From Prosthecobacter debontii (GTDB lineage Bacteria; Verrucomicrobiota; Verrucomicrobiia; Chthoniobacterales; Chthoniobacteraceae), in assembly GCA_945905735.1 (NCBI GenBank), contig CAMDQC010000029.1, forward strand, positions 1 through 42,087: a stretch of 42,087 nucleotides of DNA, given 5' to 3'. Of this stretch, positions 147 through 22,567 are shown in pieces. The notes under the pieces are model-generated. The model worked only from the letters and a program-made list of their open reading frames with translations, searched no databases and was not told where the DNA came from. The first letter of the stretch is position 1. The number at the start of each line of letters is the position of its first letter. A program made the translations under genes and the position numbers.

Positions 147-219
147 AGCTCATTCGCGCTACGCGCCTGCCTGCCTGCGTATCGCGAACCCGTCTCGCAG
201 GCACTCACTTTTCCGTTTT

Positions 220-2467: not shown

Positions 2468-2515
2468 GCCCGCATCCTGCCACGCTCCCCGCCCCGCTTC
2501 AACCTCACTCTTACT

Positions 2516-5800: not shown

Positions 5801-5925
5801 GACGAAGATTTATTGATGCTGAAGAAGAAATTTCTACAAACATCCAAGTTAAAAATCACCACCCAGCGCACCAACCAAGACTTGGCCCTTACCCGCTCGC
5901 ATTAGTCGAAGAATACGTGACCTAA
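5797..5925 (+). CDS. Possible 42-aa protein coupled to cusA
   Basis: An ATG overlapping the cusA stop (ATGA) opens 42 codons reading MRRRFIDAEEEISTNIQV through to LVEEYVT. The coupling is the only positive sign. No family is recognised and base composition is less GC-rich than cusA. It could equally be chance. Confidence 0.2.
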   Translation: MRRRFIDAEEEISTNIQVKNHHPAHQPRLGPYPLALVEEYVT

Positions 5926-6813
5926 GGCAGCATTCCACACCATCTACAACACCTTCGACTGGGGCATCGTCGGCCTCGGCAGTTCATTCGTGAGCGTAGT
6001 CCTCCTGAGCACTTATCTGGCAAACGTTCAGCAGATGCAGCGAAAGCTCGCAGCGCCGTAATCAATGAGCCTCAAACGCCGCCGGAAACAATCTGCACCC
6101 CACATATCTGGTGTGTTTCCTTGGCGAACTTATCGAATTCAGACGCGGCGGTATATCGCCCTTACTTGTGGTTTTGTTCTATTTAAATATGGGTATGATG
6201 GGTGCCCTCTTCTCGGGAATCTCCGCCCGGTTATTACAGTGGATGTATGAAAACGCTTCGCCCGCGAACGATGAGAAATTGCGGATTCACGAACTGCACC
6301 ATTGCTCCTAGCAATTTGCTTTCGACTGCTTTCGCGCCCACTGTTCCGGGGACGGTAAGAACGCGGAGTGATGTTTGGGAGTGAGGGGTCTGCTGCGACG
6401 CGCGAAGGTAGTCTTCCAAGTCCACACGCTGAAGTCCGCAGGGGTCCAACGGACGTTTCTCCGCGATTCCTCGATGCGGGCCAGCGCCGCATTCGCGAGT
6501 CCGCTGCCCTCCGCCCAGCGGTGCGCGAACTATTCCCAAGCCCCGGCGGGAGTCAAATAGGAGTCCCGGATTCCGTGGACAGCGACCTCGTCAATGAACG
6601 AATCCAGGACGATAAAATCTAGCTGCAACCAGGCGAGCGAGTCCTCGACTCGGCACTCAATCCTCGGGAAATGCTTTTCCGCGAAGGGGAGCGCATCGTC
6701 CAGGCGCTCTCGGATGCGGAACTGTCGGCGACGGATTGAAAACTCCAGCCCGACCTGCCCGCCGAGCATCGTCCCCGCTGCTTGGCACGGAGGCAGCTTT
6801 CCCCGGCACGCAG
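5926..6813. other. Poorly coding gap with short membrane-like open stretches
   Basis: No complete gene is convincing here. Bases 5927-6061 are open on the plus strand without a start codon and would encode a piece with a hydrophobic stretch (FDWGIVGLGSSFVSVVLLS). Bases 6069-6311 are open in another frame with a second hydrophobic stretch. An AT-rich patch sits around 6170-6200. The rest of the gap is discussed under the minus-strand remnant. It may be a graveyard of one or two small genes broken by frameshifts. Confidence 0.4.
6111..6311 (+). CDS. Possible small membrane protein or gene remnant (66 aa)
   Basis: A GTG-initiated frame of 66 codons with one predicted membrane helix (LLVVLFYLNMGMMGALFSG) followed by a charged tail ending HELHHCS. 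The frame is open back to 6069 with no ATG. No family is recognised. It could be the C-terminus of a larger decayed membrane protein whose earlier part is the open stretch 5927-6061 in a neighbouring frame. Confidence 0.22.
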   Translation: MCFLGELIEFRRGGISPLLVVLFYLNMGMMGALFSGISARLLQWMYENASPANDEKLRIHELHHCS

Positions 6814-6850
6814 ATGACTCACGCCCAACCGTCCCTTGAAGGGATCGCAA
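6308..6850 (-). pseudogene. Possible decayed minus-strand gene
   Basis: Reading right to left, a frame is open from 6850 to a TAG at 6530-6532 and resumes in the same frame to 6308. The text on both sides of the stop looks protein-like (LDSFIDEVAVHGIRDSYL before it, FAHRWAEGSGLANAALARIE after it), which suggests one gene split by a nonsense mutation. No family is recognised. The upstream end would overlap the PKS-like start, so its true start is unknown. GC-rich DNA can produce such frames by chance. Confidence 0.22.
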
Positions 6851-9800
6851 TTATAGGATTGGCAGGCCGCTTTCCGGGGGCGCGGAATGTCGCGGACTTT
6901 TGGCGCAATCTGTTGGCGGGCGAGGATTCGCGGCGCGCGGCGCTGGAAAAGCCGGAGTGGTTTGACGCGGCATTCTTCGGCATCTCGCCGGGCGATGCGG
7001 AGGCGATGGACCCGCAGCACCGCGTCTTCCTCGAAGAATGCTGGACGGCGCTGGAGGATGCGGCGTGCGACCCGGCGAAGTTCGCAGGAGCCATCGGCGT
7101 CTTCGGCGGGTGCAGCCGCGGGACTTACCCGGTGGAAAATGGGAAGGATGCAGACGAGTTCGCCTCGCACGTGGCGTCGCGGCTGAATCTGCGAGGCCCG
7201 GCAGTGACCGTGCAAACGGCGTGCTCCACTTCGCTGACCGCCGTGTGCCAAGCGGTGCAGAGCCTCCGCTGCTACGGCTGCGATATAGCGCTGGCGGGCG
7301 GCGCTTCGATTGTCTTCCCGCAGGCGGCAGGCGGCGTCGGCGTCGTGGCGCTCAAGCGGCTCTCGGATGCAGTGGAAGCGGGCGACCACATTTACGCGGT
7401 GATCCAAGCCGCCGCGCTGAACCACGACGGGGCCAACCCGAGCGCGAGCAGCCACGCGGAGGTCATCGCCGCTGCGCACACGCTCGCGGGCATCTCTGCG
7501 GGGAGCGTCACTTTTATCGAGGCCGATGCGGCGGAGCTGGACGCTCTCAAGCGCGCTTTCCGCTCCACGACGGCGGAGAAGAACTTCTGCGCGCTCGGCT
7601 CGGTGAAGACGAATCTCGGGAACCTCGGCGCGGCGGGTGGCATCGCCGGACTGATTAAGACTGCGCTGGCACTGCGCTACCAGACGATACCTGCGAGCCT
7701 CGATCTTCCGCATTCTCAGACGACGGAGACGCCGTTCTTTCACATCGGGCACCGGATGGAGTGGCCTACAGGCGAGACGCCGCGCCGCGCTGGAGTGTGC
7801 TCGTTTGGCATCGGCGGGACGAATGCCCACGTCGTCCTCGAAGAGCCGCCCGCGCGAATCGCCGTCGAGACGGGGCGCACGGAAAATCTGATCCTCCTCT
7901 CGGGCAAGTCGGAAGGCACGCTGGCCCAGCGCGCCAGCGAGCTCGCCGACTGCATCGAGGCCCGCCCAGAGTCCTCCTTGGCGGACATCGCCTACACGCT
8001 GCAAGCGGGGCGGAGGCACTTCGAGCACCGCCGCGCCGTCGTCTGCCCGACGCGCGAAGTCGCCATCTCGGCGCTGCGCGGCCTCGATCCGAAGCGCACC
8101 ATCAGCGGTAAAGCGGAGACGAAACGGGTGGCGTTCCTTTTCCCCGGACAAGGCGCGCAGTTCATCGGGATGGGAGCCGAGCTTTATGAATACGAGCCAG
8201 TGTTCCGCGATACGCTGGACGAGGTCTGCGCCGTCCTCCAGCCGCATGTCGGCAAGAACCTCCGCGCACTCATCCATCCTGCCGATGAGGACCGCGAGGA
8301 AGCCGGACGGGTGCTGGGCGAGACGCGCTATTCCGGGCCCGCAATTTTTGCCGTGAGCCTCGCGCTGGCGAGGTTCTGGATGTCGCTCGGCGTCCAGCCT
8401 GTCGCGCTGCTCGGGCACGGCTCCGGAGAGTATGCCGCTGCCGCGCTCGCGGGAGTGTTCTCGCTGGAAAATGCGGCGGCGCTCGTCGCCACGCACGCTC
8501 GCCTCATGCACGAGCAACCGCCGGGATGTATGCTCACCGTGAGCCTTCCGGAATCGGAAGTGACTCCACTCCTCGGGCAACGACTCTGCATCGCAGCGCT
8601 CAACAGTCCCAACGCCACGGTGATCGCCGGCACGGAGGAAGCAGCCGCCAGCCTCGAAGCTCGCCTCGCGGTGAACGGCATCGGGTGCAAGCGGCTGGAG
8701 ACCTCGCGCGCTTTCCAATCGGAACTTTGCGACCCTTTGATCGAGCCGCTGATGGAAGCCATCCGGCTGGTCCCCAGCAACGCGCCGACGATCCCGATGT
8801 TGTCGTGCATCACCGGCGAATCGCTCACGACCAAGCAGACGACCGACCCTCACTACTGGGCCACACACGCACGGGAAACCGTCCGCTTTTCCTCCGCGAT
8901 AAAGACTCTGCTCAACGAGCCCGACATGATCTTCATCGAATGCGGACCGGGCCACATGCTCTCGCAACTCACCCGCCAGCATGACACCTCGCGGATCGCG
9001 GCGACTTCGCTGCGAGAGAGCGCGAGTGATATTCGGACGGTCTATATCGCCCTCTCGCAGTTGTGGTCGTCCGGTCGCGACATCAAGTGGGAAGCCCTCC
9101 ACAGCGGCGAAGTGCGCACGCGCATTCCGCTGCCGACATACCCGTTTGAGCGCCGCCGCTTTTGGCCGACTCCCGCAGGCACGGTGCTCCCGCCACCCCT
9201 CACAGCATACCAGCGCGAACACCTCGATGCGCTCGCGGCACGCTACACGCGCATCACTGCGGAATCCAAACGCTTCGCCGCCGAGAACCGCGATTTCCTT
9301 ACCGCTGAGAACTGCTGCGTCGAATGGCAATCGCTCGCGTACCCGATCGTCGCCGAGCGCTCACACGGCAACCGAGTGCGGGACATCGACGGGAATGAAT
9401 ACATCGACTTCACGCGCGGTCACGGGCAGATCCGAGGGGTATCCGCGACGCACGACAGCGAGCCCGCTCAAGCACCCGACCTCAGCGAGCGAGCGTCCGC
9501 ACTCGTAGCCCGGATGAACACGCACCTCCCCCATTGCTGGAAGGCGGAATCGTTTCAATTCACGATGCAACTCCCGGCGGGATTCCCGCACGCCGCGCTC
9601 CTCATTTTCCACATGCGTATGCGCGGAGTGTTCATCTGGCACTCCCGCTCGAACTCACTCAACGTAGGGCACACGGACGACGACATCGCTCGCCTCGCCG
9701 ACGCATTCGAGGAGAGTGTGCGTGCGCTCATCCAATCCGATCTCCTGCCCGGCAAACCCCAGCCAACCGTCGAACTCGCGCCCCGGCAAACGCCCGCGCC

Positions 9801-10698
9801 TTCGGCGAAAGAAGAACATGCGGACACCTCGACCAGCGCGCCTCCGTTGGGGAGATTCCTCATTCAAATCCAGCCGGGCTCGGCACAATTGCCGCCGCTC
9901 TTCCTCATCCCCGGCGGCTGGGGCGGCGAGATCGAGTTCCGCGAATACACAGAGTTTGTGCGCCAACTCGGGCCGGAGCTTCCCATCTATGGACTTAAAG
10001 CACGCGGCGCAGGAACCGGAGAACCGCCGCACATGACGGTGCTAGAAATGGCCGCCGACTACATCCGTGAGATTCGTGCGCTTTGGCCGCACGGCCCCTA
10101 TCGCATCGTCGGCGAAAGCACCCGCGGCATCTGCGCCTACGAAATCGCCAGACAGCTCCGGGAAGCCGGCGAACCCGTTGACTTTCTCGCGCTCCTCAAT
10201 ACTCGCCCGCCAAGCCGGGACAATCTCCGTGACTACTTGCACCAGCAGCTTTTGAAGGAATCAGAAACGCAACCCACCGACTCTTTTATCAACCGCATCC
10301 GCCACCACATGAACGCCATCAAAGGCTACACCCTCGGGAAAAAGATCCGCTATCTGACGGGCAAGGCATCCACCCGCACCCGCCGCCGCAGCGCAGACCA
10401 TCGCTCTGGATACGAGCCCGCGCCTGATCAGGAACAGCATCCCCGTGGGCAAAAGGATTACCCCATCACGATGTTCAAACACCGACTGCGGACCTACAAA
10501 GGAAAGCTCACGCTGCTCGTGGACGAGACGACCCACAATGAGTGCGACAAGCTCGGCTGGGATAAATCGCATCCCGGCGAGCTTGAACTTCACACGCTTC
10601 CCGGCGACCACATCACCTACATCCGCGAACACGCTGGCACCGCTGCTGCTAAAGTTCGCGAGATTCTCGACCGACTCTCACTAGCCCAAAAACCATGA
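6814..10698 (+). CDS. PKS-like megaprotein with degenerate KS, AT, aminotransferase remnant and thioesterase
   Basis: 1294 residues from the ATG at 6814 (MTHAQPSLEGIAIIGLAGRF); the frame is open 26 codons further up but the ketosynthase begins here. KS at about 8-350: catalytic C137 is present (QTACSTSL), but the HGTGT position reads EADAAEL (D238) and the usual NIGH reads NLGN (N270). Blocks normally found between GGxSI and GVGVV and after the first His site are missing. AT at about 439-784: GHSxGE reads GHGSGE (G536 at the Ser position) and HAFH reads RAFQ (Q635). At 800-870 and 901-985 lie the first and last parts of a class III aminotransferase of the MycA/iturin-synthase type, with the PLP-lysine core absent. 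No acyl-carrier motif is seen. Thioesterase at about 1030-1290 has S1102 in GESTRG, N1129 where Asp is expected, and H1266. Catalysis by KS and AT looks unlikely. The gene opens the glycan operon and overlaps the PPTase start (ATGA). Confidence 0.85.
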   Translation: MTHAQPSLEGIAIIGLAGRFPGARNVADFWRNLLAGEDSRRAALEKPEWFDAAFFGISPGDAEAMDPQHRVFLEECWTALEDAACDPAKFAGAIGVFGGCSRGTYPVENGKDADEFASHVASRLNLRGPAVTVQTACSTSLTAVCQAVQSLRCYGCDIALAGGASIVFPQAAGGVGVVALKRLSDAVEAGDHIYAVIQAAALNHDGANPSASSHAEVIAAAHTLAGISAGSVTFIEADAAELDALKRAFRSTTAEKNFCALGSVKTNLGNLGAAGGIAGLIKTALALRYQTIPASLDLPHSQTTETPFFHIGHRMEWPTGETPRRAGVCSFGIGGTNAHVVLEEPPARIAVETGRTENLILLSGKSEGTLAQRASELADCIEARPESSLADIAYTLQAGRRHFEHRRAVVCPTREVAISALRGLDPKRTISGKAETKRVAFLFPGQGAQFIGMGAELYEYEPVFRDTLDEVCAVLQPHVGKNLRALIHPADEDREEAGRVLGETRYSGPAIFAVSLALARFWMSLGVQPVALLGHGSGEYAAAALAGVFSLENAAALVATHARLMHEQPPGCMLTVSLPESEVTPLLGQRLCIAALNSPNATVIAGTEEAAASLEARLAVNGIGCKRLETSRAFQSELCDPLIEPLMEAIRLVPSNAPTIPMLSCITGESLTTKQTTDPHYWATHARETVRFSSAIKTLLNEPDMIFIECGPGHMLSQLTRQHDTSRIAATSLRESASDIRTVYIALSQLWSSGRDIKWEALHSGEVRTRIPLPTYPFERRRFWPTPAGTVLPPPLTAYQREHLDALAARYTRITAESKRFAAENRDFLTAENCCVEWQSLAYPIVAERSHGNRVRDIDGNEYIDFTRGHGQIRGVSATHDSEPAQAPDLSERASALVARMNTHLPHCWKAESFQFTMQLPAGFPHAALLIFHMRMRGVFIWHSRSNSLNVGHTDDDIARLADAFEESVRALIQSDLLPGKPQPTVELAPRQTPAPSAKEEHADTSTSAPPLGRFLIQIQPGSAQLPPLFLIPGGWGGEIEFREYTEFVRQLGPELPIYGLKARGAGTGEPPHMTVLEMAADYIREIRALWPHGPYRIVGESTRGICAYEIARQLREAGEPVDFLALLNTRPPSRDNLRDYLHQQLLKESETQPTDSFINRIRHHMNAIKGYTLGKKIRYLTGKASTRTRRRSADHRSGYEPAPDQEQHPRGQKDYPITMFKHRLRTYKGKLTLLVDETTHNECDKLGWDKSHPGELELHTLPGDHITYIREHAGTAAAKVREILDRLSLAQKP

Positions 10699-11369
10699 TT
10701 CAAACACAGCCCAACTGGCCTGCGGCTCCAAGCCGCACCGTCCTCCATGCCGGTGAAATCCACCTCTGGCGCGCGAAGATTTCCCGCTCGGCGAAGCTCG
10801 CCCGATGCAGCTCCGTCCTGTCGCCGGATGAACTCGTGCGTGCGGCGCGCTTTCATTTCCCCGAAGACAGCAATCGGTTCATCGCCACACGCGGCGCTGT
10901 CCGTATGATTCTCTCGCGTTACCTCGGCGTAGAGCCGTCGGCGCTGGAATTCGGCACGGGCAGCCACGGCAAGCCGTTCGTCGTGAATCCGTTCATGGAC
11001 ATTCGCTTCAACGTCAGCCACTCGCGCGACCTCGCCATGGTCGCGGTTTCGCGTGGGCGCGAAGTCGGCGTGGATGTGGAGTGGGTGCAGCCGGACATCG
11101 AGTTCGAGCCCATCGCCGACCACTACTTCGAGCCGCAGGAGAACTGGAGCCTCCGCACCGCGCCAAAAGACGAACGCGCCTCGCGGTTCTTCGACCTATG
11201 GACTCAGAAAGAAGCGCGGCTCAAAGCGGAAGGCGTCGGGCTTGTCGGCGAGCCGACCCACGATTCTGCATAGACCGTACGCACACTCACCCCGGCGGAA
11301 GGCTACGCCGGAGCCGTCGCGAGCGAGGGCAGAGATTGGGAACTCGCCTATTGGGAATGGAGTCTATAA
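10695..11369 (+). pseudogene. Sfp-type 4'-phosphopantetheinyl transferase interrupted by an amber codon
   Basis: This family primes carrier domains of PKS, NRPS or fatty-acid synthases with the phosphopantetheine arm of CoA. The first 192 codons carry FNVSHSRD, the Mg2+-binding GVDVE (D127, E129) and WTQKEARLKA (W169, K172, E173). A TAG at 11271-11273 then ends the frame. Reading on in the same frame gives TVRTLTPAEGYAGAVAS and DWELAYWEW, which is the expected C-terminal sheet of this family, and ends at a TAA at 11367-11369 immediately before the permease ATG at 11370. The full gene would be 224 residues, normal for the family. The stretch just before the amber codon is also shorter than usual, so a small deletion is possible. 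The product as encoded is a 192-residue protein lacking its C-terminus. TAG is used as a normal stop elsewhere in the window (for example at 21650-21652), so recoding is not indicated. Confidence 0.85.
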
Positions 11370-12275
11370 ATGCCCGCGACTGAATTATCTATGGCCGAAC
11401 CAAGCACGCAGCCCGAACCAACCGGGAACTACGAAATCATCATCGAACCGAGCAAAAGTTGGCTCCGGATCAACTGGCGAGAGATGTGGGAATACCGCGA
11501 CCTGCTCTCCATCCTCATCCGCCGCGACTTCCTCGCGAAATACAAACAGACCGTGCTCGGCCCGATCTGGTTCGTGCTCCAGCCACTGCTCACTGCGGTG
11601 GTGATGAGCATCGCGTTTAACAAAATCGGCGGCATAGACACGGATGGAATCCCCTCGCTGATCTTCAATCTCTGCGCGCTCCTATCGTGGAGCTACTTCT
11701 CGCAAAACATCACCACGGGGGCCGCGACCTTCACGGCGAACTCGCACCTTTTTGGGAAGGTCTATTTCCCACGCCTCGTCGTCCCGGCGGCGGCGGCTAT
11801 TTCCAATTTGTTCGCACTCGGATTGCAGCTCATCGTCTTCCTCGCGTTCTTCGCTTGGTATGCGGCGACGGGCTCCAATGTTCACATCGGCTTAAGCGCG
11901 CTGCTGGCGATTCCGCTGTTTCTGATCACCGGGATCTTCAGTCTCGGCGTCAGCCTTTTGCTCGCGGCATCCACGGCAAAATATCGCGACCTCTCCCACC
12001 TCACGCCTGTCTTGCTCCAGCTCTGGATGTTCGCTTCGCCCGTTTTCTACCCGATGAAAAAGATCACCGAAAACGCCACGTTCGGCTGGCTGGCTTGGGC
12101 GAACCCGATGGCCGCCGTCGTGGAAGCCACGCGCGATGTTCTGCTCAAAGGCGGGCAGATGAGCCCCGAGTTGCCCACCATGCTCGGCATCTCCACGCTG
12201 GCCGCTGTGCTGGCGCTGGTCTTGGGCGTCATCGCCTTCAACCGCGCCGAGCGCACCGTAGTGGATAGCGTGTAA
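11370..12275 (+). CDS. wzm: Wzm-like ABC-2 polysaccharide export permease
   Basis: Inner-membrane permease of the O-antigen/teichoic-acid ABC exporter family (Wzm/TagG), 301 residues, usual size about 260-300. After a soluble N-terminus comes the family motif LIRRDFLAKYKQTVLGPIWF, followed by about six membrane helices. These include LLTAVVMSIAF, a Pro-rich LLSWSYFSQNI loop and the conserved LQLWMFASPVFYP segment. The start abuts the TAA that originally ended the PPTase frame, and the stop abuts the next ATG at 12276, so it is translationally linked on both sides. It would form the channel with one or both of the Wzt-type ATPases downstream. Confidence 0.93.
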   Translation: MPATELSMAEPSTQPEPTGNYEIIIEPSKSWLRINWREMWEYRDLLSILIRRDFLAKYKQTVLGPIWFVLQPLLTAVVMSIAFNKIGGIDTDGIPSLIFNLCALLSWSYFSQNITTGAATFTANSHLFGKVYFPRLVVPAAAAISNLFALGLQLIVFLAFFAWYAATGSNVHIGLSALLAIPLFLITGIFSLGVSLLLAASTAKYRDLSHLTPVLLQLWMFASPVFYPMKKITENATFGWLAWANPMAAVVEATRDVLLKGGQMSPELPTMLGISTLAAVLALVLGVIAFNRAERTVVDSV

Positions 12276-13565
12276 ATGACGGCCATAAACGCCAACCGCC
12301 CCATCGTCGAAATCGAGAACGTCTCGAAGCGCTACCGCGTCGACACGCTCGGGCCGACTTCGCTCGCCGAAGCCTTTCGCGCCATGTTGCCGGGCCGGAA
12401 ACAACCTGCCACACCGAACGATTTCGGCGTGCGGAATGGCGATATTCCGGGGACGTTTTGGAGTCTGCGCGATGTGAATTTCTCCGTGCAGCGTGGAGAG
12501 ATCGTCGGGCTCATCGGCAAAAACGGTGCGGGAAAATCCACGCTGCTGAAGCTCATCTCGCGCATCACCGAGCCGACGAAAGGGCGCATCACGCTCCGAG
12601 GTCGCATCGCCTCTTTGCTGGAAGTCGGCACGGGCTTCCACCCCGAACTCACAGGCCGCGAGAACATCTTTCTGAACGGCGCAATCCTCGGCATGAAACG
12701 CTGGGAGATTCAGGCGAAGTTCGCCGAGATCGTCGAGTTCGCTGAGGTCGGCAGCTTCCTCGATACGCCCGTGAAGCGCTACTCCAGCGGCATGTTCGTG
12801 CGCCTCGCCTTTGCGGTGGCCGCGCACCTGGATCCGGAGATTTTGCTCATTGATGAAGTGCTCGCCGTGGGCGACGCGGGCTTTCAGCAAAAGTGTCTCG
12901 GCAAGATGAGCGAAGTCGCCTCGCAAGGTGGACGGACGATCTTTTTCGTGAGCCACAACCTCACCGCCATCCGCGCACTCTGCACGCGCGCCGTGCTCAT
13001 CGAAGACGGCACCGCGAAACTGAGCGGCGCACCCGAAGAAGTCATCACGCATTACCTCGCAGCGACCACGCCCACGAGTGAAGGCGAGGCAGGCCGCATC
13101 GTCTATAAAGAGGACGCTCCCAGCGTGGACGAACTCCGTCTCACTTCGCTCACGCTGAGGAACTCCCGCGACGAAGTCTGCGCGATTTTCGATGCGAACG
13201 AACCCATCCACGTCGAACTCCGATACCGCGTCACCGAGCGCCTCCGAGGCGCACGGATGCTCGTCTCGCTCTACACGACGGAAGGCGACCTCGTGCTCAC
13301 GATGACCGACCACGAGCTTCATAAACCGACGCTGGAGCCCGGCGAATACTGCACGCGATTTGCCGTGCCCGGCGGGCTCCTAAACCGGCGCGCATACTCG
13401 TTCTGCGCAAGCAGCGACGCGCCCGGCATCCGCTACCTCATCTCCGGCGGCAAGCACCTTCCCTTCACCGTCGTCGGCGCTGGAAATCACCTCTCGCAGT
13501 TCCCTGAACGCTGGCCCGGCGCCGTCTGCCCGCGCATCACCACCACTGTCGAACTCAACCCATGA
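12276..13565 (+). CDS. wzt: Wzt-like ABC ATPase with C-terminal carbohydrate-binding domain (copy 1)
   Basis: 429 residues. An N-terminal ATPase domain carries Walker A GKNGAGKST (81-89), a signature region around RYSSGMFVRLAFA and Walker B ILLIDEVLAVGDAG. A beta-rich C-terminal domain from about 285 onward resembles Wzt_C, which in O-antigen exporters recognises the glycan's non-reducing end. It follows the permease without a gap and overlaps the acyltransferase by ATGA. It is a paralogue of the ATPase at 15621-16904; the two share a 59-bp identical run in the ATPase half but have diverged C-terminal domains. Confidence 0.93.
   Translation: MTAINANRPIVEIENVSKRYRVDTLGPTSLAEAFRAMLPGRKQPATPNDFGVRNGDIPGTFWSLRDVNFSVQRGEIVGLIGKNGAGKSTLLKLISRITEPTKGRITLRGRIASLLEVGTGFHPELTGRENIFLNGAILGMKRWEIQAKFAEIVEFAEVGSFLDTPVKRYSSGMFVRLAFAVAAHLDPEILLIDEVLAVGDAGFQQKCLGKMSEVASQGGRTIFFVSHNLTAIRALCTRAVLIEDGTAKLSGAPEEVITHYLAATTPTSEGEAGRIVYKEDAPSVDELRLTSLTLRNSRDEVCAIFDANEPIHVELRYRVTERLRGARMLVSLYTTEGDLVLTMTDHELHKPTLEPGEYCTRFAVPGGLLNRRAYSFCASSDAPGIRYLISGGKHLPFTVVGAGNHLSQFPERWPGAVCPRITTTVELNP
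12639..12697 (+). repeat. 59-bp direct repeat shared by the two wzt genes
   Basis: Bases 12639-12697 are identical to 15972-16030 and encode the Q-loop-following segment HPELTGRENIFLNGAILGMK in both ATPases. Identity drops on both sides to ordinary paralogue levels. This points to recent duplication or gene conversion. Confidence 0.85.
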
Positions 13566-14713
13566 GCACGCCCACCGCCAAGACTGACACCCGACTGCCC
13601 GGCCTCGACGGCCTGCGCGGCATCGCGTGCTTCATGGTCTTCTTTTACCACCTCCGCTGGAGCGCGCAGCCGAGCGACACCGCCCCACTCGTGCTCCCGA
13701 TTGGCGGGCTGAATCTGGAGTTCCTCCTGCGCAAGTTCGACATCGGTGTGGCGATCTTTTTCGTCCTCTCCGGCTTACTGCTTTCACTGCCGTTTTGGCG
13801 GGCGATTCTGGAAAGCCAGCCAGCCCCGCAAATGGGCAGGTACTTGTGGCGGCGGGCGTGCCGCATCGTCCCGGCATACTTCGCAGTCCTCGTCGCCGTG
13901 TATCTTCTGCGCGGCGATACTTACACGTTCTACGGGGCGCTCGACTTCCTGCTGCACGTTACTTTTCTCCACAATTTCGCCGACTACGCCTACCTCGGGC
14001 CGCATCGGGATTTGTGGACGATTGGGATCGAGTTTCAGTTCTATCTGCTCCTCCCGCTCATCATGGCTGCGGTCGCCAGCGTCTTTCGGAAATGCGGCGC
14101 GGCAGTCGCGCTGCTCGCGCTCCTCGTCGGCTGCTGGCTCGCGGATGTGGCGGCGACTTCGGCGCTACGGATGGCGGAGCCGTTCATCCCCGACCGCTTT
14201 GTTTCCGCGACGGGCGATATCGTCGTGGGCACCGTGTTCTCTTACTTGAAGCTCTTCGCCTTCGGCATCGCTGCCGCGTTTGCCGTGCTCCGAGTCCGCT
14301 GCTCGGAACGCTCGGCAGACATCGCGTGTGTCGCGTGCATCGTGGCGACGGCTGCGCTTGTGACCTTTGGCGATGAAGCTGGCTGGCGGCACACCGCCGC
14401 GCTCGGCTGGCCGCTGAATGCGCTCGTGCTCGGCACTCTCGCGGCTTCCGTGGCGCGCTCGGGGTTCTTTGCGCGGGCGCTTTCTACGAAGTGGATGGCA
14501 GCTGCGGGCACGATTTCCTACGGCATCTATTTGTGGCACGACCTCGTGCTGCACGCTGCATTTGCCGGCACGCTGCGGGGGAATCTCTCCGGCTTTCCGC
14601 TCTTCTTTATTGGCGGAGCCATCGCGTTGGCGGTGACGCTCATCATAGCCACACTGTCATGGTGTTTTATCGAGCGCGGCACTCTCCGTGCGCCATATCC
14701 TTTCGCCCGATGA
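13562..14713 (+). CDS. Acyltransferase 3 family membrane O-acyltransferase
   Basis: Integral-membrane acyltransferase of the OafA/YrhL (Acyl_transf_3) type, 383 residues with about ten helices. The N-terminal motif LPGLDGLRGIA followed by FFYHLRW supplies the conserved His. The mid-protein motif LWTIGIEFQFYLLLPL and the late motif ISYGIYLWHDLVL are typical. Such enzymes move acetyl or other short acyl groups onto sugars at the membrane, so here it most likely decorates the glycan made by the neighbouring transferases. It overlaps both neighbours by ATGA. Confidence 0.92.
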   Translation: MSTPTAKTDTRLPGLDGLRGIACFMVFFYHLRWSAQPSDTAPLVLPIGGLNLEFLLRKFDIGVAIFFVLSGLLLSLPFWRAILESQPAPQMGRYLWRRACRIVPAYFAVLVAVYLLRGDTYTFYGALDFLLHVTFLHNFADYAYLGPHRDLWTIGIEFQFYLLLPLIMAAVASVFRKCGAAVALLALLVGCWLADVAATSALRMAEPFIPDRFVSATGDIVVGTVFSYLKLFAFGIAAAFAVLRVRCSERSADIACVACIVATAALVTFGDEAGWRHTAALGWPLNALVLGTLAASVARSGFFARALSTKWMAAAGTISYGIYLWHDLVLHAAFAGTLRGNLSGFPLFFIGGAIALAVTLIIATLSWCFIERGTLRAPYPFAR

Positions 14714-15624
14714 ACGCACCGCGCATCTCCATCATCACTCCTTCGTATAACCAAGGAGCCTATATCGAAGAAACCATCCGCTCCGTAATCGAGCAGGATT
14801 ACCCGAACATCGAACTCATCGTCATGGACGGCGGCAGCACCGACAACACGGTGGACATCCTCAAGAAATACGGCGACCGCATCAGCCATTGGGAGAGCGA
14901 GAAGGACCGTGGCCAAACGCACGCCATCAACAAGGGACTCGCCCGCGCCACCGGCGAAATCTGGGCCTACCTGAACAGCGACGACCTCATCACACCCGGC
15001 GCATTCCAGCGCGTCGCGGAAATCTTCGCCGACCCTGCGGTGAACTGGATCGGCGGCATCACCGACATCTTCGACACGCAAGGCTCGCGCGACACCGTGA
15101 CGCCGCAGAAGCCCGCGCGGACAATCGAATACCTCACCCCGTGGCAACGCTCCGTGCAGCACGTCTTCTCCTGCTCCAACGTCACGTATATGCGCCGCCG
15201 CGTGTATGAAAAAATCGGCGCGTTCGACGAGGCTTACCACTACTCGATGGACATGGAATACTACGCGCGCGCCATGTTCTCCGGCTTCGAGTTTCACCGC
15301 GTGCCGGAGGTGCTGGGACGCTGGCGCTGGCACGATGAGTGCAAGACCGTCCGAGACGGAAACTCCTACCGATTTACCGGCGAGGAAATCCTCATCGCCG
15401 AGGCACATCTCCGCTCCCTGCCTGCCGAGGAGCAGACCGAACTTGCCCGCGAACTGCGCCACCAGCGCCAGTGGTTCGCCATCCGCAAAATCGTCGTCGG
15501 CGATGCGACTTCCTCCCGCCTCTCCCGCCTCGCCAGCCTGTTCAAGGCAGCCGCTGTAAACCCTAGCTTGTTCTGCTTCCGTCCGTGGATTGGAGCCGTC
15601 CGGCAGCAAATTTCTCTTTCATGA
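14710..15624 (+). CDS. Family 2 glycosyltransferase
   Basis: 304 residues from the ATG at 14710, which overlaps the acyltransferase stop; a longer upstream frame lies inside that gene and is not used. The GT-A fold shows ISIITPSYNQGAYIEETI at the N-terminus, MDGGSTDNT for the nucleotide-sugar pocket, and the acidic metal-binding motif LNSDD (residues 88-92). An acceptor-side YSMDMEYYARA motif and a late GRWRWHDECKT follow. It is soluble or peripheral, with no membrane helix. Donor and acceptor sugars cannot be predicted. It overlaps the second wzt by ATGA. Confidence 0.92.
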   Translation: MNAPRISIITPSYNQGAYIEETIRSVIEQDYPNIELIVMDGGSTDNTVDILKKYGDRISHWESEKDRGQTHAINKGLARATGEIWAYLNSDDLITPGAFQRVAEIFADPAVNWIGGITDIFDTQGSRDTVTPQKPARTIEYLTPWQRSVQHVFSCSNVTYMRRRVYEKIGAFDEAYHYSMDMEYYARAMFSGFEFHRVPEVLGRWRWHDECKTVRDGNSYRFTGEEILIAEAHLRSLPAEEQTELARELRHQRQWFAIRKIVVGDATSSRLSRLASLFKAAAVNPSLFCFRPWIGAVRQQISLS

Positions 15625-16904
15625 AGCCCGTCGTCGAAGTTCAAAATCTTTCCAAACTCTTCCATCTCGGGACCATCGGGGCCACCAGTCTCCGCGACTC
15701 GATGGAGCGCGTGCTCGGCAAGCGCAAACCCGCGCCCAAGGAAGACTCCCGCGTCGCCGCAGACCGGCGCGGCCCAGTGCCGAATTCCTTTTGGGGGCTC
15801 AAGGACGTTTCCTTCTCCGTGAACCCCGGCGAGATCGTCGGAATCGTCGGCAGAAACGGCGCGGGGAAATCCACGCTGCTCAAGATCCTCTCGCGCATCA
15901 CGGAGCCTACATCGGGGCGCGCGATCCTACGCGGACGGCTCGCCTCCTTGCTGGAGGTTGGCACGGGCTTTCACCCCGAACTCACAGGCCGCGAGAACAT
16001 CTTTCTGAACGGCGCAATCCTCGGCATGAAGCGCTGGGAAATCGCCGCGAAATTCGACGAGATCGTCGAGTTCGCCGAAGTCGGGCAATTCCTCGATACG
16101 CCCGTGAAACGCTACTCCAGCGGCATGTTCGTGCGCCTCGCGTTTGCCGTCGCCGCGCATTTGGAGCCGGAGATTCTTTTCATCGATGAAGTGCTGGCAG
16201 TCGGCGATGCGGGCTTCCAGAAAAAGTGCCTCGGCAAGATGGGCGATGTCGCCAACCGACAGGGCCGCACGGTCTTCTTCGTCAGCCATAATATGTCGGC
16301 CATCCGTGCGCTGTGCCGCGATGCGATCCTCATCGAAAACGGAACCGTCGCCTACACCGGCACGCCCGCCGAAGTCATCTCGCGCTACCTCGCCGCCACT
16401 GTCCCAGACCACGCCAGCGTGGACGGCGACCTCGACTGGCGACAGCACCCCGAGAAGCCCGGCTGCGACGAAATGCGCATCCAGCGTATCCGCCTGCTCG
16501 ACCATCTGGGCGAGCCGCAGACGACCTTTGAAGCGCAGAATTTCATTGATGTAGAAATCACCTACCAAGTCCACAGCCCGGTCCGCGATTTGCGCTTCCG
16601 CGTCCAGCTCACCACGCAGGAAGGCGAGCTGGCATTCCAAGCCACCGACCACATTTTCCAGCGCGAGCACCACGAGGTCGGCACGTATCGCACGACTTGC
16701 CGAATCCCCGGCGAGTTGCTGAACCGGCGCATGTATTCGCTCGGCGTGCAGGCTGATTTGGCGGGCGTCCGCTACCTCATGCACATGACGGACTTCATCA
16801 ATTTCGTCGTCTCGGGCGCGGGGAATCAGTCTTCCCATTTCCCCGAATCATGGCCCGGCGTCGTGTGCCCACGCATCGCGTGGACAACCTCCAATCCCGC
16901 ATGA
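15621..16904 (+). CDS. wzt: Wzt-like ABC ATPase with C-terminal carbohydrate-binding domain (copy 2)
   Basis: 427 residues starting MKPVVEVQNLSKLF. Walker A is GRNGAGKST (77-85) and Walker B is ILFIDEVLAVGDAG, with a Wzt_C-like beta domain after about residue 285. It closely resembles copy 1 in the ATPase half, including an identical 59-bp run, but differs in the sugar-binding half. Only one permease is present in the window, so the two ATPases may form a heterodimer or give the same channel two glycan specificities. Both ends overlap neighbours by ATGA. Confidence 0.92.
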   Translation: MKPVVEVQNLSKLFHLGTIGATSLRDSMERVLGKRKPAPKEDSRVAADRRGPVPNSFWGLKDVSFSVNPGEIVGIVGRNGAGKSTLLKILSRITEPTSGRAILRGRLASLLEVGTGFHPELTGRENIFLNGAILGMKRWEIAAKFDEIVEFAEVGQFLDTPVKRYSSGMFVRLAFAVAAHLEPEILFIDEVLAVGDAGFQKKCLGKMGDVANRQGRTVFFVSHNMSAIRALCRDAILIENGTVAYTGTPAEVISRYLAATVPDHASVDGDLDWRQHPEKPGCDEMRIQRIRLLDHLGEPQTTFEAQNFIDVEITYQVHSPVRDLRFRVQLTTQEGELAFQATDHIFQREHHEVGTYRTTCRIPGELLNRRMYSLGVQADLAGVRYLMHMTDFINFVVSGAGNQSSHFPESWPGVVCPRIAWTTSNPA

Positions 16905-17821
16905 GCAACGGCCCGCTTGTTCTTGCTGTGCCGGTTTACAATGCCGAGCGATACCTCGGCGCGACGCTCGATTCGCTCAATGCGGAAGGCGACGCTCTGC
17001 GCTGGTGGCTGCAAGACGGTGGCTCGAACGACAAGACGCTCGACATCGCCCAAGCCGCCGCGCGGCCAGGCGACAGCATCCACTCGGCGCTCGACCGGGG
17101 ACAATCCGACGCGATCAACACCGCGATGCACGCGATGGGCGGAGAGATCATCGGCTTTATCAACGGCGACGACATTCTCATACCCGGCACCGCGCGCTGT
17201 GTGCTCGATTATTTCGCGGCGCATCCCGACGTGGACCTCGTCTATGGCTCGATAGAATGGATCAACGAAAGCGGTTCGACGACCGGGCGGCACACCGGGC
17301 GAATTAACAGCGTGAGCGACATCCTGAACATCTACCGCGTGTGGTGGGGCAAGCGTCAGTGGGTGCAGCCGGAAGTCTTCTTTCGCCGGTCCTTGTTTGA
17401 AAAAGTCGGCGGGTTCGACATTGGCTACCATCTCGCGTTCGACTTCGACTTCTGGGCGCGCTGCTTCATCGCTGGTGCGCGCGTCGCCCACATCCCGCAA
17501 GTCTTCGCAAAGTTTCGCAAACACTCCGGGCAAAAATCCAGCGCAGCCGCCGAGGCCGCCGCTGAGATACGAAGCATTGTGCGGAAGCACATCGCCGCCG
17601 GGGCGCCGCTCAACCTATGGATGCGCTGGTGCCTGAATGCGCAACTCGACTACGACTGCTACCAGCGCGGCGAGACCTCTGACCCAACCGGCGCACGCCC
17701 ATCTTTCACGCGCGCGATCCTGATGCATCCTCACTGGTTCCTCAGCCCTGCCGTCCGCATTCGTACGCAGTCGAGCCTTGCCAAGTGGCTCGGAATCAGA
17801 AAACCGTCTTCACACAAATGA
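16901..17821 (+). CDS. Family 2 glycosyltransferase
   Basis: 306 residues from the ATG at 16901 (MSNGPLVLAVPVYNAERYL). The GT-A features are LQDGGSNDKT and the metal site INGDD (D90, D91). A WVQPEVFFRRSLFEKVGGFD motif and YHLAFDFDFWARC, where the catalytic acid usually lies, follow. There is no membrane helix. It overlaps wzt copy 2 and the next gene by ATGA. The substrate is unknown; context says glycan-chain assembly. Confidence 0.9.
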   Translation: MSNGPLVLAVPVYNAERYLGATLDSLNAEGDALRWWLQDGGSNDKTLDIAQAAARPGDSIHSALDRGQSDAINTAMHAMGGEIIGFINGDDILIPGTARCVLDYFAAHPDVDLVYGSIEWINESGSTTGRHTGRINSVSDILNIYRVWWGKRQWVQPEVFFRRSLFEKVGGFDIGYHLAFDFDFWARCFIAGARVAHIPQVFAKFRKHSGQKSSAAAEAAAEIRSIVRKHIAAGAPLNLWMRWCLNAQLDYDCYQRGETSDPTGARPSFTRAILMHPHWFLSPAVRIRTQSSLAKWLGIRKPSSHK

Positions 17822-18729
17822 TTTCACTTGGACGCCTTTGGCTGAACCTCCGACGCGACATGAAGCGCGGTTGGTCCGCGAGCTACCACGACCGGCATAC
17901 CAAGCCACGCATCGCGACTTGGAACTGGCCGTATTGGAACGAGTCGCCCATGCCCGTGCCCGTCCACGTGCTCACCGGCGCGAACGATTGGGAGCTTTGC
18001 GCATGGATGCTGGCCAGTTGGTTCACCGTCACCGAAGAGACGTGGCGCGTCGTCATCCACGACGATGGCACACTGCCCCCCCACGCCCGTACGACCCTCA
18101 GCACGCTGTTCAAAACCTGCCGCTTTGTTTCCCGCACGGACGCCGACCCTGCGATGGAAAAACTCCTGCGCCCATTCCCATTTTGCCACGAATACCGCAC
18201 CAAGCACCCGCTCTCGCAGAAGATTTTCGACATCCCGCACTTCTGTGATTCCGACCGCCTTATCATCCTCGATAGCGACATTTTATTCTACCGCTACCCG
18301 AGCGAAATCATGGCGTGGGTGAACGGCTCGACCAACGATTGCTGGTTCAACGAAGACTGCGCGGAGGCAAGTATCATCTCCGCCGAAAATGCTTGGGAAG
18401 ACCTCGGCGTGAAGCTCTGGCCGCGCGTAAATAGCGGCTGCTGCCTGCTGCAAAAATCCGCCATAGACCTTGAGTTTTGCGAGCGCGCGCTCGGCGAGAC
18501 GAGCATCACCAAAGGCCACATCTGGCGCATCGAGCAGACCCTCATCGCCCTCTGCGCATCGCGCCACGGGCACGGCGGACTGCTGCCAAAAACTTACGAA
18601 GTCTCCCTCGGGAAAACGGCGTCCAGCGACGCCATCATGCGCCACTACGTCGGTGCGGTGCGCGACTACTTTTACAGCGAGGGACTGGCGAAGCTCGCGC
18701 CCATCCTACTGCCAAAGGAGGAGTTCTAA
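17818..18729 (+). CDS. Putative GT-A nucleotide-sugar transferase with DSD motif
   Basis: 303 residues starting MISLGRLWLNLRRDMKRGW. The most informative segment is RLIILDSDILFYRYPSEI, where D152-S153-D154 form a DxD-type metal/nucleotide-sugar site after a hydrophobic strand, as in GT8-like and related GT-A enzymes. Later VNSGCCLLQ resembles the acceptor-loop strand of such folds, and the C-terminus has RHYVGAVRDYFYSEG. I cannot assign a CAZy family with certainty. It overlaps the preceding gene by ATGA and ends two bases before the next ATG. Its last codons contain an AAGGAGGAG stretch that serves as ribosome-binding site for the downstream gene. Confidence 0.75.
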   Translation: MISLGRLWLNLRRDMKRGWSASYHDRHTKPRIATWNWPYWNESPMPVPVHVLTGANDWELCAWMLASWFTVTEETWRVVIHDDGTLPPHARTTLSTLFKTCRFVSRTDADPAMEKLLRPFPFCHEYRTKHPLSQKIFDIPHFCDSDRLIILDSDILFYRYPSEIMAWVNGSTNDCWFNEDCAEASIISAENAWEDLGVKLWPRVNSGCCLLQKSAIDLEFCERALGETSITKGHIWRIEQTLIALCASRHGHGGLLPKTYEVSLGKTASSDAIMRHYVGAVRDYFYSEGLAKLAPILLPKEEF

Positions 18730-18731
18730 GT

Positions 18732-19775
18732 ATGGATGTCGTCTTCGCACCCGACTGGCGGGAAGGAGTCCCCTACCAGCGCCTCCTCTCGGAAGCACTG
18801 GAGCGGCAAGGCGTCCACGTCCACTTTCTCTACGGCTACAAGCGGCTGCTCCCACTCTCCCGCGCTATGCGGGAGAAGAACGCCGACATCCTCCACCTCC
18901 ACTGGCCCGAGGCATACTACCCGCCGAGGCGAGACGGGCACGATTGGTTCCGCCGTGCGCGCTTCCAGCTCGATCTCCGCTTCGCCCTGCGCCGCTGCCG
19001 CCTCGCCACCACTGGCCACAACTTGGCCCCGCACAACCGCAGCCACGAATCATTCGCCGTCGCCAATCTCCGCGACGCCTACCGCCGCTCGCGGGTCGTC
19101 TTTGCACACTCCATCCTCGCAAAAACGCGGATGGTGGAACTGTTCGACATCCGCCCCGAGCGCATCGCCGTCATCCCCCACGGCGATCTCTCCGTCACAC
19201 TCGGCGCGCCCATTTCTCAAGCCGACGCCCGAGCGAAACTGAACCTCCCACCTACGGGAAAAATCGCCCTCATCTTCGGCATGGTAGAGCCCTACAAAGG
19301 GCAGGAAGAAGTCATCGAATGGTGGCGCACCGCCAATACCGACGCCACCCTCGCCATCGTCGGCAAGCCCTCCAACGCCGCATACCGCGAGCACCTCACC
19401 AGCCGCATCGGCGGGGCGAAAAACATCATCGCACGCTTCGAGTGGCTCCCCGACGCCGCCCTCCGCGACTGGCTCTGCGCCGTGGATTGCACCATTTTCA
19501 ACTACCGGAAAATCTTCACCTCTGGCGCGGCAAACCTCGCCCGCTCTTGGGGGCTCCCCATGATTCTCCCCGAGCGACTCGACACCGTCGTGCTCGACGA
19601 GCCCTCGCCCATCATCCACCGATTCACCAGCCTCGACTCTGACTTCGCCCAGCAACTCCAGCGCGCACTCTCCGTGCCGCCCGACTTCGCCGGAGCCGCC
19701 GCATGGCGCGCAGACACGAGCTGGGACCACGTCGCAAAACTCACCTTGGAGGGCTACAACCGAGCTCGCGCATAG
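18732..19775 (+). CDS. GT-B fold glycosyltransferase (GT4-like)
   Basis: 347 residues from the ATG at 18732, preceded by a good Shine-Dalgarno at 18716-18724. The N-terminal half has ADILHLHWPEAYY and a TTGHNLAPHNRSH loop. The linker has VIPHGDLSV, and the C-terminal Rossmann half has KIALIFGMVEPYKGQEEVIE and TLAIVGKP. This two-domain layout is typical of GT-B enzymes; the family's usual EX7E motif is not obvious, and FTSGAANLARSWGLP occupies the nucleotide-binding region. It resembles glycosyltransferases of polysaccharide clusters that move mannose or similar sugars, but the donor is not predictable. It is followed by a 20-bp gap before the amidotransferase. Confidence 0.85.
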   Translation: MDVVFAPDWREGVPYQRLLSEALERQGVHVHFLYGYKRLLPLSRAMREKNADILHLHWPEAYYPPRRDGHDWFRRARFQLDLRFALRRCRLATTGHNLAPHNRSHESFAVANLRDAYRRSRVVFAHSILAKTRMVELFDIRPERIAVIPHGDLSVTLGAPISQADARAKLNLPPTGKIALIFGMVEPYKGQEEVIEWWRTANTDATLAIVGKPSNAAYREHLTSRIGGAKNIIARFEWLPDAALRDWLCAVDCTIFNYRKIFTSGAANLARSWGLPMILPERLDTVVLDEPSPIIHRFTSLDSDFAQQLQRALSVPPDFAGAAAWRADTSWDHVAKLTLEGYNRARA

Positions 19776-19795
19776 CGGCCTCGCCTTACAACACC

Positions 19796-21652
19796 ATGTG
19801 CGGAATTGCAGGATTCATAGAACGCGCCACCCCCATAGATGAAGCCGCCGACCGGCTCCACCGGATGCTGGGCCGCATCGCCCATCGCGGTCCCGACGGC
19901 GAAGGGCTCCACGTCGAGCCCGGCGTCGCCATCGGGATGCGCCGCCTCTCCATCATAGACCTCGCGGGCGGCGACCAGCCCATCTGGAACGAAGACCACA
20001 CCATCGCCATCGTCTTCAACGGCGAAATCTACAACTACCTCGAACTCCGCGCCGAACTCCAATCGCGCGGTCATATTTTCAAAACGAGCAGCGACACAGA
20101 AGTCCTCGTCCACCTCTACGAAGACGCAGGCGAGCGCATGTTCGAGCGCCTCCGCGGCATGTTCGGCTTTGCCATCTTCGACCGCGCCCGCCGCTCCGTC
20201 CTCATCGCCCGCGATCACTTCGGCCAAAAGCCGCTCTACTACGCCAGCCAAGACGGAGCCTTCGCCTTCGCCTCCGAGATGAAGGCCCTCTTGGACATCC
20301 CGTGGCTCCGCCGCGACCTCGATCCAGACGCCTTTCTCGACTACGCCGCATGGCTCTCACTCCCCTCCCCGCGCACCCATTTCCGCCACATCCATAAACT
20401 CCCCGCTGGCTCCTACATCCGCATCGCCCTCGATGCACCCGAGCGCGCCCAGCCAGTCAAATACTGGCGCTACGACCTCACCCAAGAGCCCGACCTCCTC
20501 GAAGAACCCGCCGCCATAGACGCCCTCGACGCCGCCCTCCACGAAAGTATGCGCCTCCACCTCCGCGCCGACGTGCCCCTCGGCGTCCTCCTCAGCAGCG
20601 GCCTCAACAGCCGCGTCGTAGTCACCTACGCCCAAGAAATCCTCGGCGGCACCATTCAGACCTTCACCGTCGGCTTCGGCGCAGACGACTCCGAGCTTAC
20701 CGGCGCAGCCGAGACCGCACGCGAAATCCGCTCCCACCACCACCCGCTCGAAATCAACGCCCAAGACTTCGCAGCCAGCATCGGCCAAATCGCCCACCAC
20801 CTCGACGAACCCATCGGCGACCCCGCCTGCTTCGCCGTCTTCAACATCTGCAAATTCGCCCGCCAACACGTCAAAGTCCTCCTCTCCGGCGAAGGCAGCG
20901 ACGAACTCTTCGGCGGCTACGGGCGCTACGGCGGGATGCTCGACACCCTTGGCAAAACAGACCGCCTCCGCTGGCTCGGCAAGCTCTTCCCCGCCTCCGC
21001 CTTCTCCGACTCCCGCTGGCAACGCCTCAGCCAACGCATCAAAATCACCCGCGCCACCGAGGCCCTCATGCTCCGCCAAGAAGGGCTACCCGGCGACACC
21101 CGCAAACCTCGCGGCCTCACCCCCGCACAACTCACCCGCCTCTTCAACCGCGCCGCACAACTCTCCGGCATCTGCCGCCCGCAGCGCGACGCACTCAGCG
21201 CACTCCTCGCGCTCGACATTGATTGGCAGCTCGCCGAATCCCTCCTCCAAAAAGCCGACAAAATGAGCATGGGAGCCAGCATCGAACTCCGCACCCCCAT
21301 CCTCGACCTCGAAATCGCCAAAATCGCCGCCCGCATCCCCTCCTCCCTCAAACTCCACCACACCGGCATCGGCAAATACATCCTCCGCAAAACCATCGGG
21401 CGAAAACTCAACGAAGACCTCACACGCCCCAAAAAAGGCTTCCCCGTCCCCCTCGGCAAATGGTTCGCAGGCCCACTCCGCGAGCGCGTCGAAGCAGAAC
21501 TCTTCGCCTCCGACTCCGCCGTCTGCGAGCAACTCGAACGCCCACTCCTCCGCGCCGCGTGGGACGACTACCTCGCCGGGCGCTGGGAAGGCCACTACAC
21601 CCTCTTCGCACTTTGGCTCTACGAGACATGGCGGCGCACACTCCCCAAATAG
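19796..21652 (+). CDS. asnB: Asparagine-synthase-like glutamine amidotransferase
   Basis: 618 residues; the start is fixed at 19796 because Cys2 (MCGIAGF) must become the N-terminal nucleophile. The glutaminase half is intact: RLSIIDL, NGEIYN and SSDTEVL are present. The synthetase half has EGSDELFGGYGRY and LQKADKMSMGASIELRTP. Its ATP-pyrophosphatase loop, normally SGGxDS, reads SSGLNSR (267-273), so N271 replaces the expected Asp. In glycan loci this family usually amidates sugar acids or other carboxylates rather than making free asparagine. The loop change may reduce or alter ATP use. It ends one base before the next start. It could be an active variant or part of the same decay seen in the PKS-like gene. 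Confidence 0.9.
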   Translation: MCGIAGFIERATPIDEAADRLHRMLGRIAHRGPDGEGLHVEPGVAIGMRRLSIIDLAGGDQPIWNEDHTIAIVFNGEIYNYLELRAELQSRGHIFKTSSDTEVLVHLYEDAGERMFERLRGMFGFAIFDRARRSVLIARDHFGQKPLYYASQDGAFAFASEMKALLDIPWLRRDLDPDAFLDYAAWLSLPSPRTHFRHIHKLPAGSYIRIALDAPERAQPVKYWRYDLTQEPDLLEEPAAIDALDAALHESMRLHLRADVPLGVLLSSGLNSRVVVTYAQEILGGTIQTFTVGFGADDSELTGAAETAREIRSHHHPLEINAQDFAASIGQIAHHLDEPIGDPACFAVFNICKFARQHVKVLLSGEGSDELFGGYGRYGGMLDTLGKTDRLRWLGKLFPASAFSDSRWQRLSQRIKITRATEALMLRQEGLPGDTRKPRGLTPAQLTRLFNRAAQLSGICRPQRDALSALLALDIDWQLAESLLQKADKMSMGASIELRTPILDLEIAKIAARIPSSLKLHHTGIGKYILRKTIGRKLNEDLTRPKKGFPVPLGKWFAGPLRERVEAELFASDSAVCEQLERPLLRAAWDDYLAGRWEGHYTLFALWLYETWRRTLPK

Positions 21653-22567
21653 ATGAAAGTCACCATCTGCATCCCCTGCCACAACGCAGCAGCATGGGTC
21701 CGCCAAGCCATCCAAAGCGCCCTCGGCCAAACCGACATCCAGCCCGAAGTCATCATAGTAGATGACGGCTCCACCGACGGCTCCACAGACATCATCCGCG
21801 AATTTGGCGACCGCGTCACCCTCCTCACCGGCCCCAAGCGCGGAGCCACCCACGCCCGCAACCTCGCATGGCAGCACGGCACCGGAGAATGGGTCCAATT
21901 TCTCGACGCAGACGACTACCTAGAGCCCCACAAAATCGCCACCCAGCTCCGCGAAGCCCCCGACGCCGAAGTCATCTACAGCCCCGTCTGGATCGAGACC
22001 ACCACCGGCACCCACACCACCCGCGAACTCAGCCACACCGCCCCCGCCGAAGACATCTACACCCAATGGATCACTTGGCGCATCCCGCAAACCGGCGGCG
22101 CACTCTGGAAGCGCACCACCCTCGAAACCCTCGGCGGCTGGAAAGAAGACCAGCCCTGCTGCCAAGAACACGAACTCTACCTCCGCGCCATCCTCGCCCA
22201 AAAGCGCTTCGTCTTCGCCTCCACACCCGCCGCCATCTACCGCATCTGGAGCGAAGAAACCCTCTGCCGCAAAGACCCCCGCCTCGTCGCCCGAGTCCGC
22301 ACCAGCCTCATTGATACCCTCCTCGATTGGCTCCGCCAAAACCACAAACTCACCCCCGCACACACCGCCGCCGCAGGCCAAGTCTTCTTCGAGCAAGCCC
22401 GCACCTGGGCCCGCTACAACCTCCCCGAAGCCGCCGCCTACAGCGCCGAGCGCAATGCCCACGGCCCCTACCAAATCACCGGCCCCGCCGCCCCCCGCAC
22501 CTACCGCCTCATCCACAAACTCCTCGGCTTCACCGCCGCAGAAAAAATCGCGAACTTCCTCCGCTAA
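21653..22567 (+). CDS. Family 2 glycosyltransferase
   Basis: 304 residues starting MKVTICIPCHNAAAWVRQAI, abutting the amidotransferase stop. The GT-A fold has IIVDDGSTDGSTDII and the metal site LDADDYLEPHK (D85, D87, D88). A QTGGALWKRTTLETLGGW acceptor segment and CQEHELYLRAI follow, and late positions contain AIYRIWSEETLCRKD. It is soluble, with no membrane helix. It is the last gene of the long plus-strand operon; 58 bp follow before a gene of a different kind. Its donor and acceptor are unknown. Confidence 0.92.
   Translation: MKVTICIPCHNAAAWVRQAIQSALGQTDIQPEVIIVDDGSTDGSTDIIREFGDRVTLLTGPKRGATHARNLAWQHGTGEWVQFLDADDYLEPHKIATQLREAPDAEVIYSPVWIETTTGTHTTRELSHTAPAEDIYTQWITWRIPQTGGALWKRTTLETLGGWKEDQPCCQEHELYLRAILAQKRFVFASTPAAIYRIWSEETLCRKDPRLVARVRTSLIDTLLDWLRQNHKLTPAHTAAAGQVFFEQARTWARYNLPEAAAYSAERNAHGPYQITGPAAPRTYRLIHKLLGFTAAEKIANFLR

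Follow-up and report, generated by a model that had tools for sequence, protein, structure and literature searches.

A synthase-derived gene ahead of the PPTase and glycan genes

The window, that is the whole stretch of 42,087 nucleotides analysed here, is contig 29 of a Prosthecobacter debontii assembly of 258 contigs and 5.19 Mb. Its positions 6814-10698 hold a single open frame of 1294 codons, running from the ATG at 6814 to the TGA at 10696-10698 with 0 internal stops. When the protein was searched with Pfam, both KS models (KS-N, 135 bits; KS-C, 71 bits), the AT model and the thioesterase (TE) model scored above their cut-offs, which bears out a preliminary description of this DNA as an uninterrupted frame with KS, AT and TE homology. 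That domain list was right as far as it went, but neither the remnant of a class III aminotransferase (about aa 795-975) nor the excision of ACP and C-A-PCP was noticed in it. Pfam gives a trace of the aminotransferase (PF00202 at aa 843-870, E 0.027, under the cut-off).

We compared the protein with full-length synthases. A relative encoded on contig 11 of the same genome contains, according to Pfam, KS, AT, two carrier proteins, a class III aminotransferase, condensation (C), adenylation (A) and TE domains, and its motifs are intact. Full-length relatives measure ~2800 aa, and more than half of that length is missing from the protein of the window, hereafter called hollow. In the alignment, it lacks the core of the aminotransferase and the active-site loops of the KS, together with ACP and C-A-PCP; the losses are in frame, six of them in the KS (26, 18, 29, 6, 8 and 4 aa). 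A carrier protein with its Ser was looked for in the hollow protein: no PP-binding match was obtained, and the ACP and PCP motifs are absent. The two remaining ends of the aminotransferase are presumably the small domain of that fold (Table 1).

Table 1. Parts of the hollow gene and the genes that follow it, with their positions in the window
Feature	Position	Strand	Basis and remarks
Leader, GGAGG within	6770..6813	+	44 bp; sole 5' stretch in common with the sister genome G002
KS remnant, aa 1-345	6814..7848	+	PF00109/PF02801 and alignments; Cys137 kept, first His block deleted, N270 at second His
KS-AT linker, aa 346-435	7849..8118	+	PF22621/PF22336 over aa 358-422; dN/dS 0.37
AT remnant, aa 436-740	8119..9033	+	PF00698, 157 bits; G536 (Ser in sister genome), Q635, H561
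Class III aminotransferase, N-terminal part, about aa 795-873	9196..9432	+	Alignment to full-length synthases; preceding ACP excised
Aminotransferase, C-terminal part, about aa 874-975	9433..9738	+	Alignment; PLP-binding core between both parts excised
TE, aa 1019-1294	9868..10695	+	PF00975, 81 bits; Ser1102 in GESTRG, N1129, His1266 kept; preceding C-A-PCP excised
PPTase, Sfp-like by two Pfam domains	10695..11273	+	PF01648, PF22624; start overlaps hollow gene stop as ATGA
Glycan operon	11370..22567	+	Pfam; ABC-2 permease, ABC ATPase, acyltransferase 3, GT2, Wzt-like ATPase, GT2, gene without Pfam match, GT4-like (below cut-off), AsnB-like, GT2

In related genomes, the place of the hollow gene is taken by a KS-AT-ACP-aminotransferase-C-A-PCP-TE synthase, located before the PPTase and the glycan operon. 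The full-length synthase of the same genus is homologous to the hollow protein over all that remains of it, with the same domain order and the same place before the PPTase, and differs from it by its intact motifs. In 10 genomes altogether, a synthase ends with its TE directly before the PPTase, which the ABC permease follows. G001, G008 and G028 have this synthase as a full-length single frame and G007, G004 and G024 as two frames, whereas in G003, G020, G031 and G033 the available stretch shows its C-terminal part only. Since the hollow gene occupies the place of the synthase and overlaps the PPTase start, we read it as a hollowed positional orthologue. The order of the glycan operon is kept in the sister genome and found whole or in part in relatives. 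An NRPS partner lies 5' of the synthase in G001 and G008, with a similar arrangement in G007, while in G000, G002 and G009 the partner and a full-length synthase are on a contig other than that of the PPTase operon. G009 (L102, L103, G009:C118) has the PPTase/glycan operon, and the 18 kb preceding it gave no match to a synthase; G014 has a PPTase and one operon gene, likewise without such a match in the 14 kb examined. The operon in general therefore does not need the synthase and, as in G009, can occur separately from an assembly line. Once a second synthase copy existed, the one beside the operon may have been freed.

Three observations concern the PPTase and its surroundings. The window PPTase ends at an in-frame TAG (11271-11273), 32 residues earlier than that of the sister; a recoded TAG was rejected as the cause, G002 and G009 having no stop at that place. 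One other PF01648 gene only, possibly AcpS, was found in the window genome. Finally, the G007 synthase (L029, G007:C2, 6683-13922) consists of two overlapping frames without the aminotransferase end and the start of the C domain, and the frame of the G007 PPTase, before 6683, also breaks early; this synthase is perhaps another one losing parts at the same operon.

On the 5' side, blastn of window positions 1-6900 against the 1138 bp preceding the G002 copy gave 95% identity over 44 bp, the rest being short chance-like matches. Positions 1-6769 are thus unrelated to the sister's 1138 bp, up to 44 bp before the start of the hollow gene, which indicates a rearrangement point there. In the window, a HlyD and RND efflux pair sits 5' of the hollow gene. 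A remnant of the NRPS partner was also considered and rejected: positions 5781-6813 and the 1138 bp of G002, compared with three partner proteins, gave weak matches at most, with best E values of 2.8 and 0.29.

Catalytic sites and predicted fold

In the catalytic columns of KS, AT and TE, the residues were altered as the preliminary description had it, with some refinements. The KS Cys is kept (C137 in TACSTS). The first His was removed by the 8-residue deletion and the second is replaced by Asn (N270), so that of the Cys-His-His of an active type I modular PKS only the Cys is present in both species. Both His had been reported as lost, with D238 and N270 at their sites, and both residues are found as placed; D238, though, is the next aligned residue after the deletion and not a substitution, and the KS Cys is intact. 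In the AT of both hollow copies, His is changed to Gln (Q635) and Arg to His (H561), a position that is Arg in 13/13 other aligned synthases and which we take to be their substrate-binding Arg. The change of the AT Ser to Gly (G536) is found in the window genome only, since the sister copy reads GHSSGE. The Ser, His and Arg set that an active type I modular PKS requires is therefore lacking in the hollow protein.

Contrary to the other aligned TEs, which all have a Cys nucleophile (GEC.GG in 12/12, e.g. L022:12484-13233), the two hollow copies carry Ser at that site. At the Asp place they have Asn, compared with 10/12 Asp and 2/12 Gly (L030, L111) in the others; these counts come from the TE rows, which align well, of an alignment with misplaced aminotransferase fragments. 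The TE His is kept in both copies, and the Arg of GESTRG, inside the GxSxG elbow, is specific to the window genome. G536 and Q635 in the AT, and N1129 and GESTRG in the TE, were thus located where they had been described, G536 and the elbow Arg being limited to the window genome. Homology to an enzyme together with loss of catalytic residues, as expected of a pseudoenzyme, is observed in the hollow protein.

An AlphaFold model of aa 1-800, built on a 15-row alignment, reached a pLDDT of 77.5 and a pTM of 0.73; 13 of the 15 rows contain a full KS, which may pull the model towards an intact fold. The AT is mostly at pLDDT 84-97, and the KS is lower with weak loops. Foldseek ranks KS-AT didomains first, the best PDB match being the ClbI KS-AT (TM 0.86). 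In the model, the joins of all six KS deletions fall in coil, which is only mildly unlikely by chance, as 52% of KS junctions touch coil anyway. According to this prediction, the KS-AT shell still folds. For the C-terminal part, the model is poor (pLDDT 59.1), although Foldseek still matches it to thioesterases.

Retention of the hollow gene in two species

The sister genome G002, from a congeneric species, also encodes the hollow protein. Its copy shares the deletions and is 89% identical, with one 2-codon indel and no stop. In a named genome collection, in which the window's own genome is perhaps not included, the sole confirmed locus belongs to a metagenome-assembled Chthoniobacteraceae bacterium (Verrucomicrobiota), which we take to be G002 itself, and is 89% identical. 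The full hollow form was found in 2/10 genus genomes and 2/213 order genomes; its C-terminal half has no match at all in 2/10 genus genomes. Both the window genome and G002 also carry, elsewhere, a full-length copy with intact motifs.

For the selection analysis, we compared the window with G002 over 1292 codons with one two-codon gap, and this single sequence pair carries the argument. The dN/dS of the hollow pair is 0.199 by NG86 (bootstrap 0.158-0.247), 0.162 by YN00 and 0.151 by ML, whereas that of the intact pair from the same two genomes is 0.104, 0.111 and 0.106, respectively. Ten neighbour genes gave dN/dS values of 0.03 to 0.30 and dS values of 0.07 to 0.34; the dS of the hollow gene (0.27) is inside this range, giving no sign of recent transfer. 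In 300 runs of neutral simulation at the dS of the pair, a mean of 21.4 stops (minimum 7) and 543 amino-acid changes accumulated, compared with 0 and 137 observed. Neither the neutral evolution nor the broken frame of a pseudogene is thus found for the hollow gene, and selective retention as a protein, the other mark of a pseudoenzyme, is indicated by this one sequence pair. A comparison with an orthologue had been proposed in the preliminary description: with a dN/dS of 0.15-0.20, and with the neutral simulation, it speaks for the retention part of its suggestion that the protein is kept for a non-catalytic role, such as binding or scaffolding in the glycan operon. Its other suggestion, very recent decay, has to be abandoned for the hollowing itself, which predates a split at dS about 0.27-0.33 and dN/dS has been 0.15-0.20 since then.

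An assembly or sequencing error could be suspected, as the sister record is a metagenome-assembled genome and each copy is on a single contig. We rejected it, and consider it next to impossible, on account of the same deletions being common to two genomes at 89% protein identity, with dS within the range of the neighbours. It could also be proposed that the frame is kept merely as a spacer, which translation needs in order to reach the overlapping start of the PPTase, its amino acids being of little importance. The ATGA overlap, the in-frame nature of the deletions and the position of the hollow gene as the first before the operon would fit. Such a spacer, however, predicts a dN/dS near 1 without stops instead of 0.15-0.20, and G009 has the PPTase operon without the hollow gene, which makes this reading very doubtful.

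The constraint is not uniform along the protein. By NG86, the hollow pair has a dN/dS of 0.16 in the KS (0.12 by ML), 0.37 in the linker, 0.22 in the AT, 0.28 after the AT, 0.22 in the aminotransferase remnants (0.14 over aa 793-974) and 0.13 in the TE; the intact pair has 0.04 in the KS, 0.11 in the AT and 0.09 in the TE. Constraint on the hollow copy is thus looser than on the intact pair, about fourfold in the KS, yet real. The TE value, the lowest of the six parts, and the TE Ser and His kept in both species raise the question of a reduced enzyme, in which a Ser-Asn-His TE would still be active, as a hydrolase or an acyltransferase, and would simply be carried by the shell of KS, AT and aminotransferase. 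As Asp is also absent in 2/12 other aligned TEs (Gly there), a TE without it is not necessarily dead. However, Asp is replaced by Asn in both copies, the Arg inside the elbow makes a working TE less likely in the window copy, and the KS remnant is nearly as constrained (0.16) as the TE, which is unexpected for mere packing. We consider a reduced enzyme unlikely.

Among the KS-AT columns invariant in 13 other synthases (n=188), 149 are kept in both hollow copies, 16 are deleted, 17 are changed in both and 6 in one. Trees were built from 16 KS-AT rows and 14 TE rows (G024b, under 180 aa, was dropped), leaving out rows without a match to the part. In the KS-AT tree, the hollow pair has a stem of 0.62 changes per site and tips of 0.06 and 0.05, and its stem is 0.61 in the TE tree. 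A long stem with short tips looks as if fast remodelling had been followed by constraint; long branches are found elsewhere in the KS-AT tree too (G004a, 0.95). The best tree groups the hollow pair with G008, G001 and G007, with a support of 89/86 that is not strong. In topology tests on 11 of the 16 KS-AT rows, one clade of the hollow pair with C11, C1 and G009 was not rejected (AU p 0.09), and the hollow pair with C11 and C1 alone was rejected (p 2e-5).

The remaining alternative is an ordinary pseudogene in slow decay, in which strong constraint acted for most of the interval and is now ending, or in which the low dN/dS is misleading. The window-only changes at the AT Ser, the TE elbow and the PPTase stop point in this direction, as does the absence of the hollow gene from G009, and an intact copy elsewhere makes the gene dispensable. 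However, neither copy has a stop or frameshift over a dS of about 0.3. Of the 85 KS-AT differences, 27 could be polarised and 58 were undecided; the window tip received 14 of the polarised ones and the G002 tip 13. We regard slow decay as quite unlikely.

A synthase shell probably kept without its chemistry

Altogether, most of the chemistry of the hollow protein is lost and the protein is kept. It is probably a pseudoenzyme of megasynthase origin whose role is structural or regulatory. The data show that a synthase gene heading the PPTase/glycan operon was hollowed in place, through substitutions and deletions in frame, before the split of the two congeneric species, and that its product has been under purifying selection since, with a full-length intact copy elsewhere in each of the two genomes. 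The hollow protein would then work without the chemistry of the synthase, and docking or regulation would be its most likely task; the PPTase, the intact synthase or an operon product are guesses at whom it may serve. A more specific version is that a whole PKS-NRPS synthase was turned in place into a non-catalytic scaffold: deletions would have removed the active-site loops of the KS, the PLP core and the carrier proteins and spared the structural shells, and the product would now dock to, or regulate, either the intact synthase or the machinery of glycan export. This is possible, and we put it forward tentatively. Several points speak against a retained pseudo-megasynthase: just 2/10 genus genomes carry it, G009 and G014 have the operon or part of it without a synthase match in the stretch examined, constraint is looser than on the intact pair, above all in the KS (0.16 against 0.04), and the window-only AT Ser change, the change beside the TE nucleophile and the premature end of the PPTase may be signs of renewed decay in this genome.

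The chain length factor, or KS-beta, of type II PKS is a known example of an inactive KS retained to partner an active one. The likeness is one of description: KS-beta is a separate KS-like subunit, whereas the hollow protein has deleted loops and further domains. Single dead domains inside working megasynthases are also known, as in PfaB of bacterial PUFA synthases, where a pseudo-KS (KS') is joined to an AT and a scaffold role is suggested for KS' (PMC12895367). By its description, PfaB resembles the hollow protein in that a KS without its triad is joined to an AT. It differs in that its AT is described there as active (PMC12895367), whereas the hollow protein has lost its AT residues and continues with aminotransferase and TE parts; the PfaB-type combination of an inactive KS with an active AT is thus not what we find. 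PKS/NRPS lines with embedded PLP domains include KS-AT-CP-PLP1-C-A-CP layouts (PMC3870968), which resemble the full-length relative, the PLP core being excised from the hollow protein. In the literature searched, which included Verrucomicrobia PKS/NRPS clusters and covered subscription journals thinly, no conserved dead megasynthase was recognised.

A plain family search labels the hollow gene a PKS, which is a warning. The intact copy in both genomes makes this a natural case for asking what role a KS-AT shell has without its chemistry. If our reading is true, nearly every domain is without its catalytic residues and yet the protein is conserved, which would indicate that assembly-line shells can be reused.
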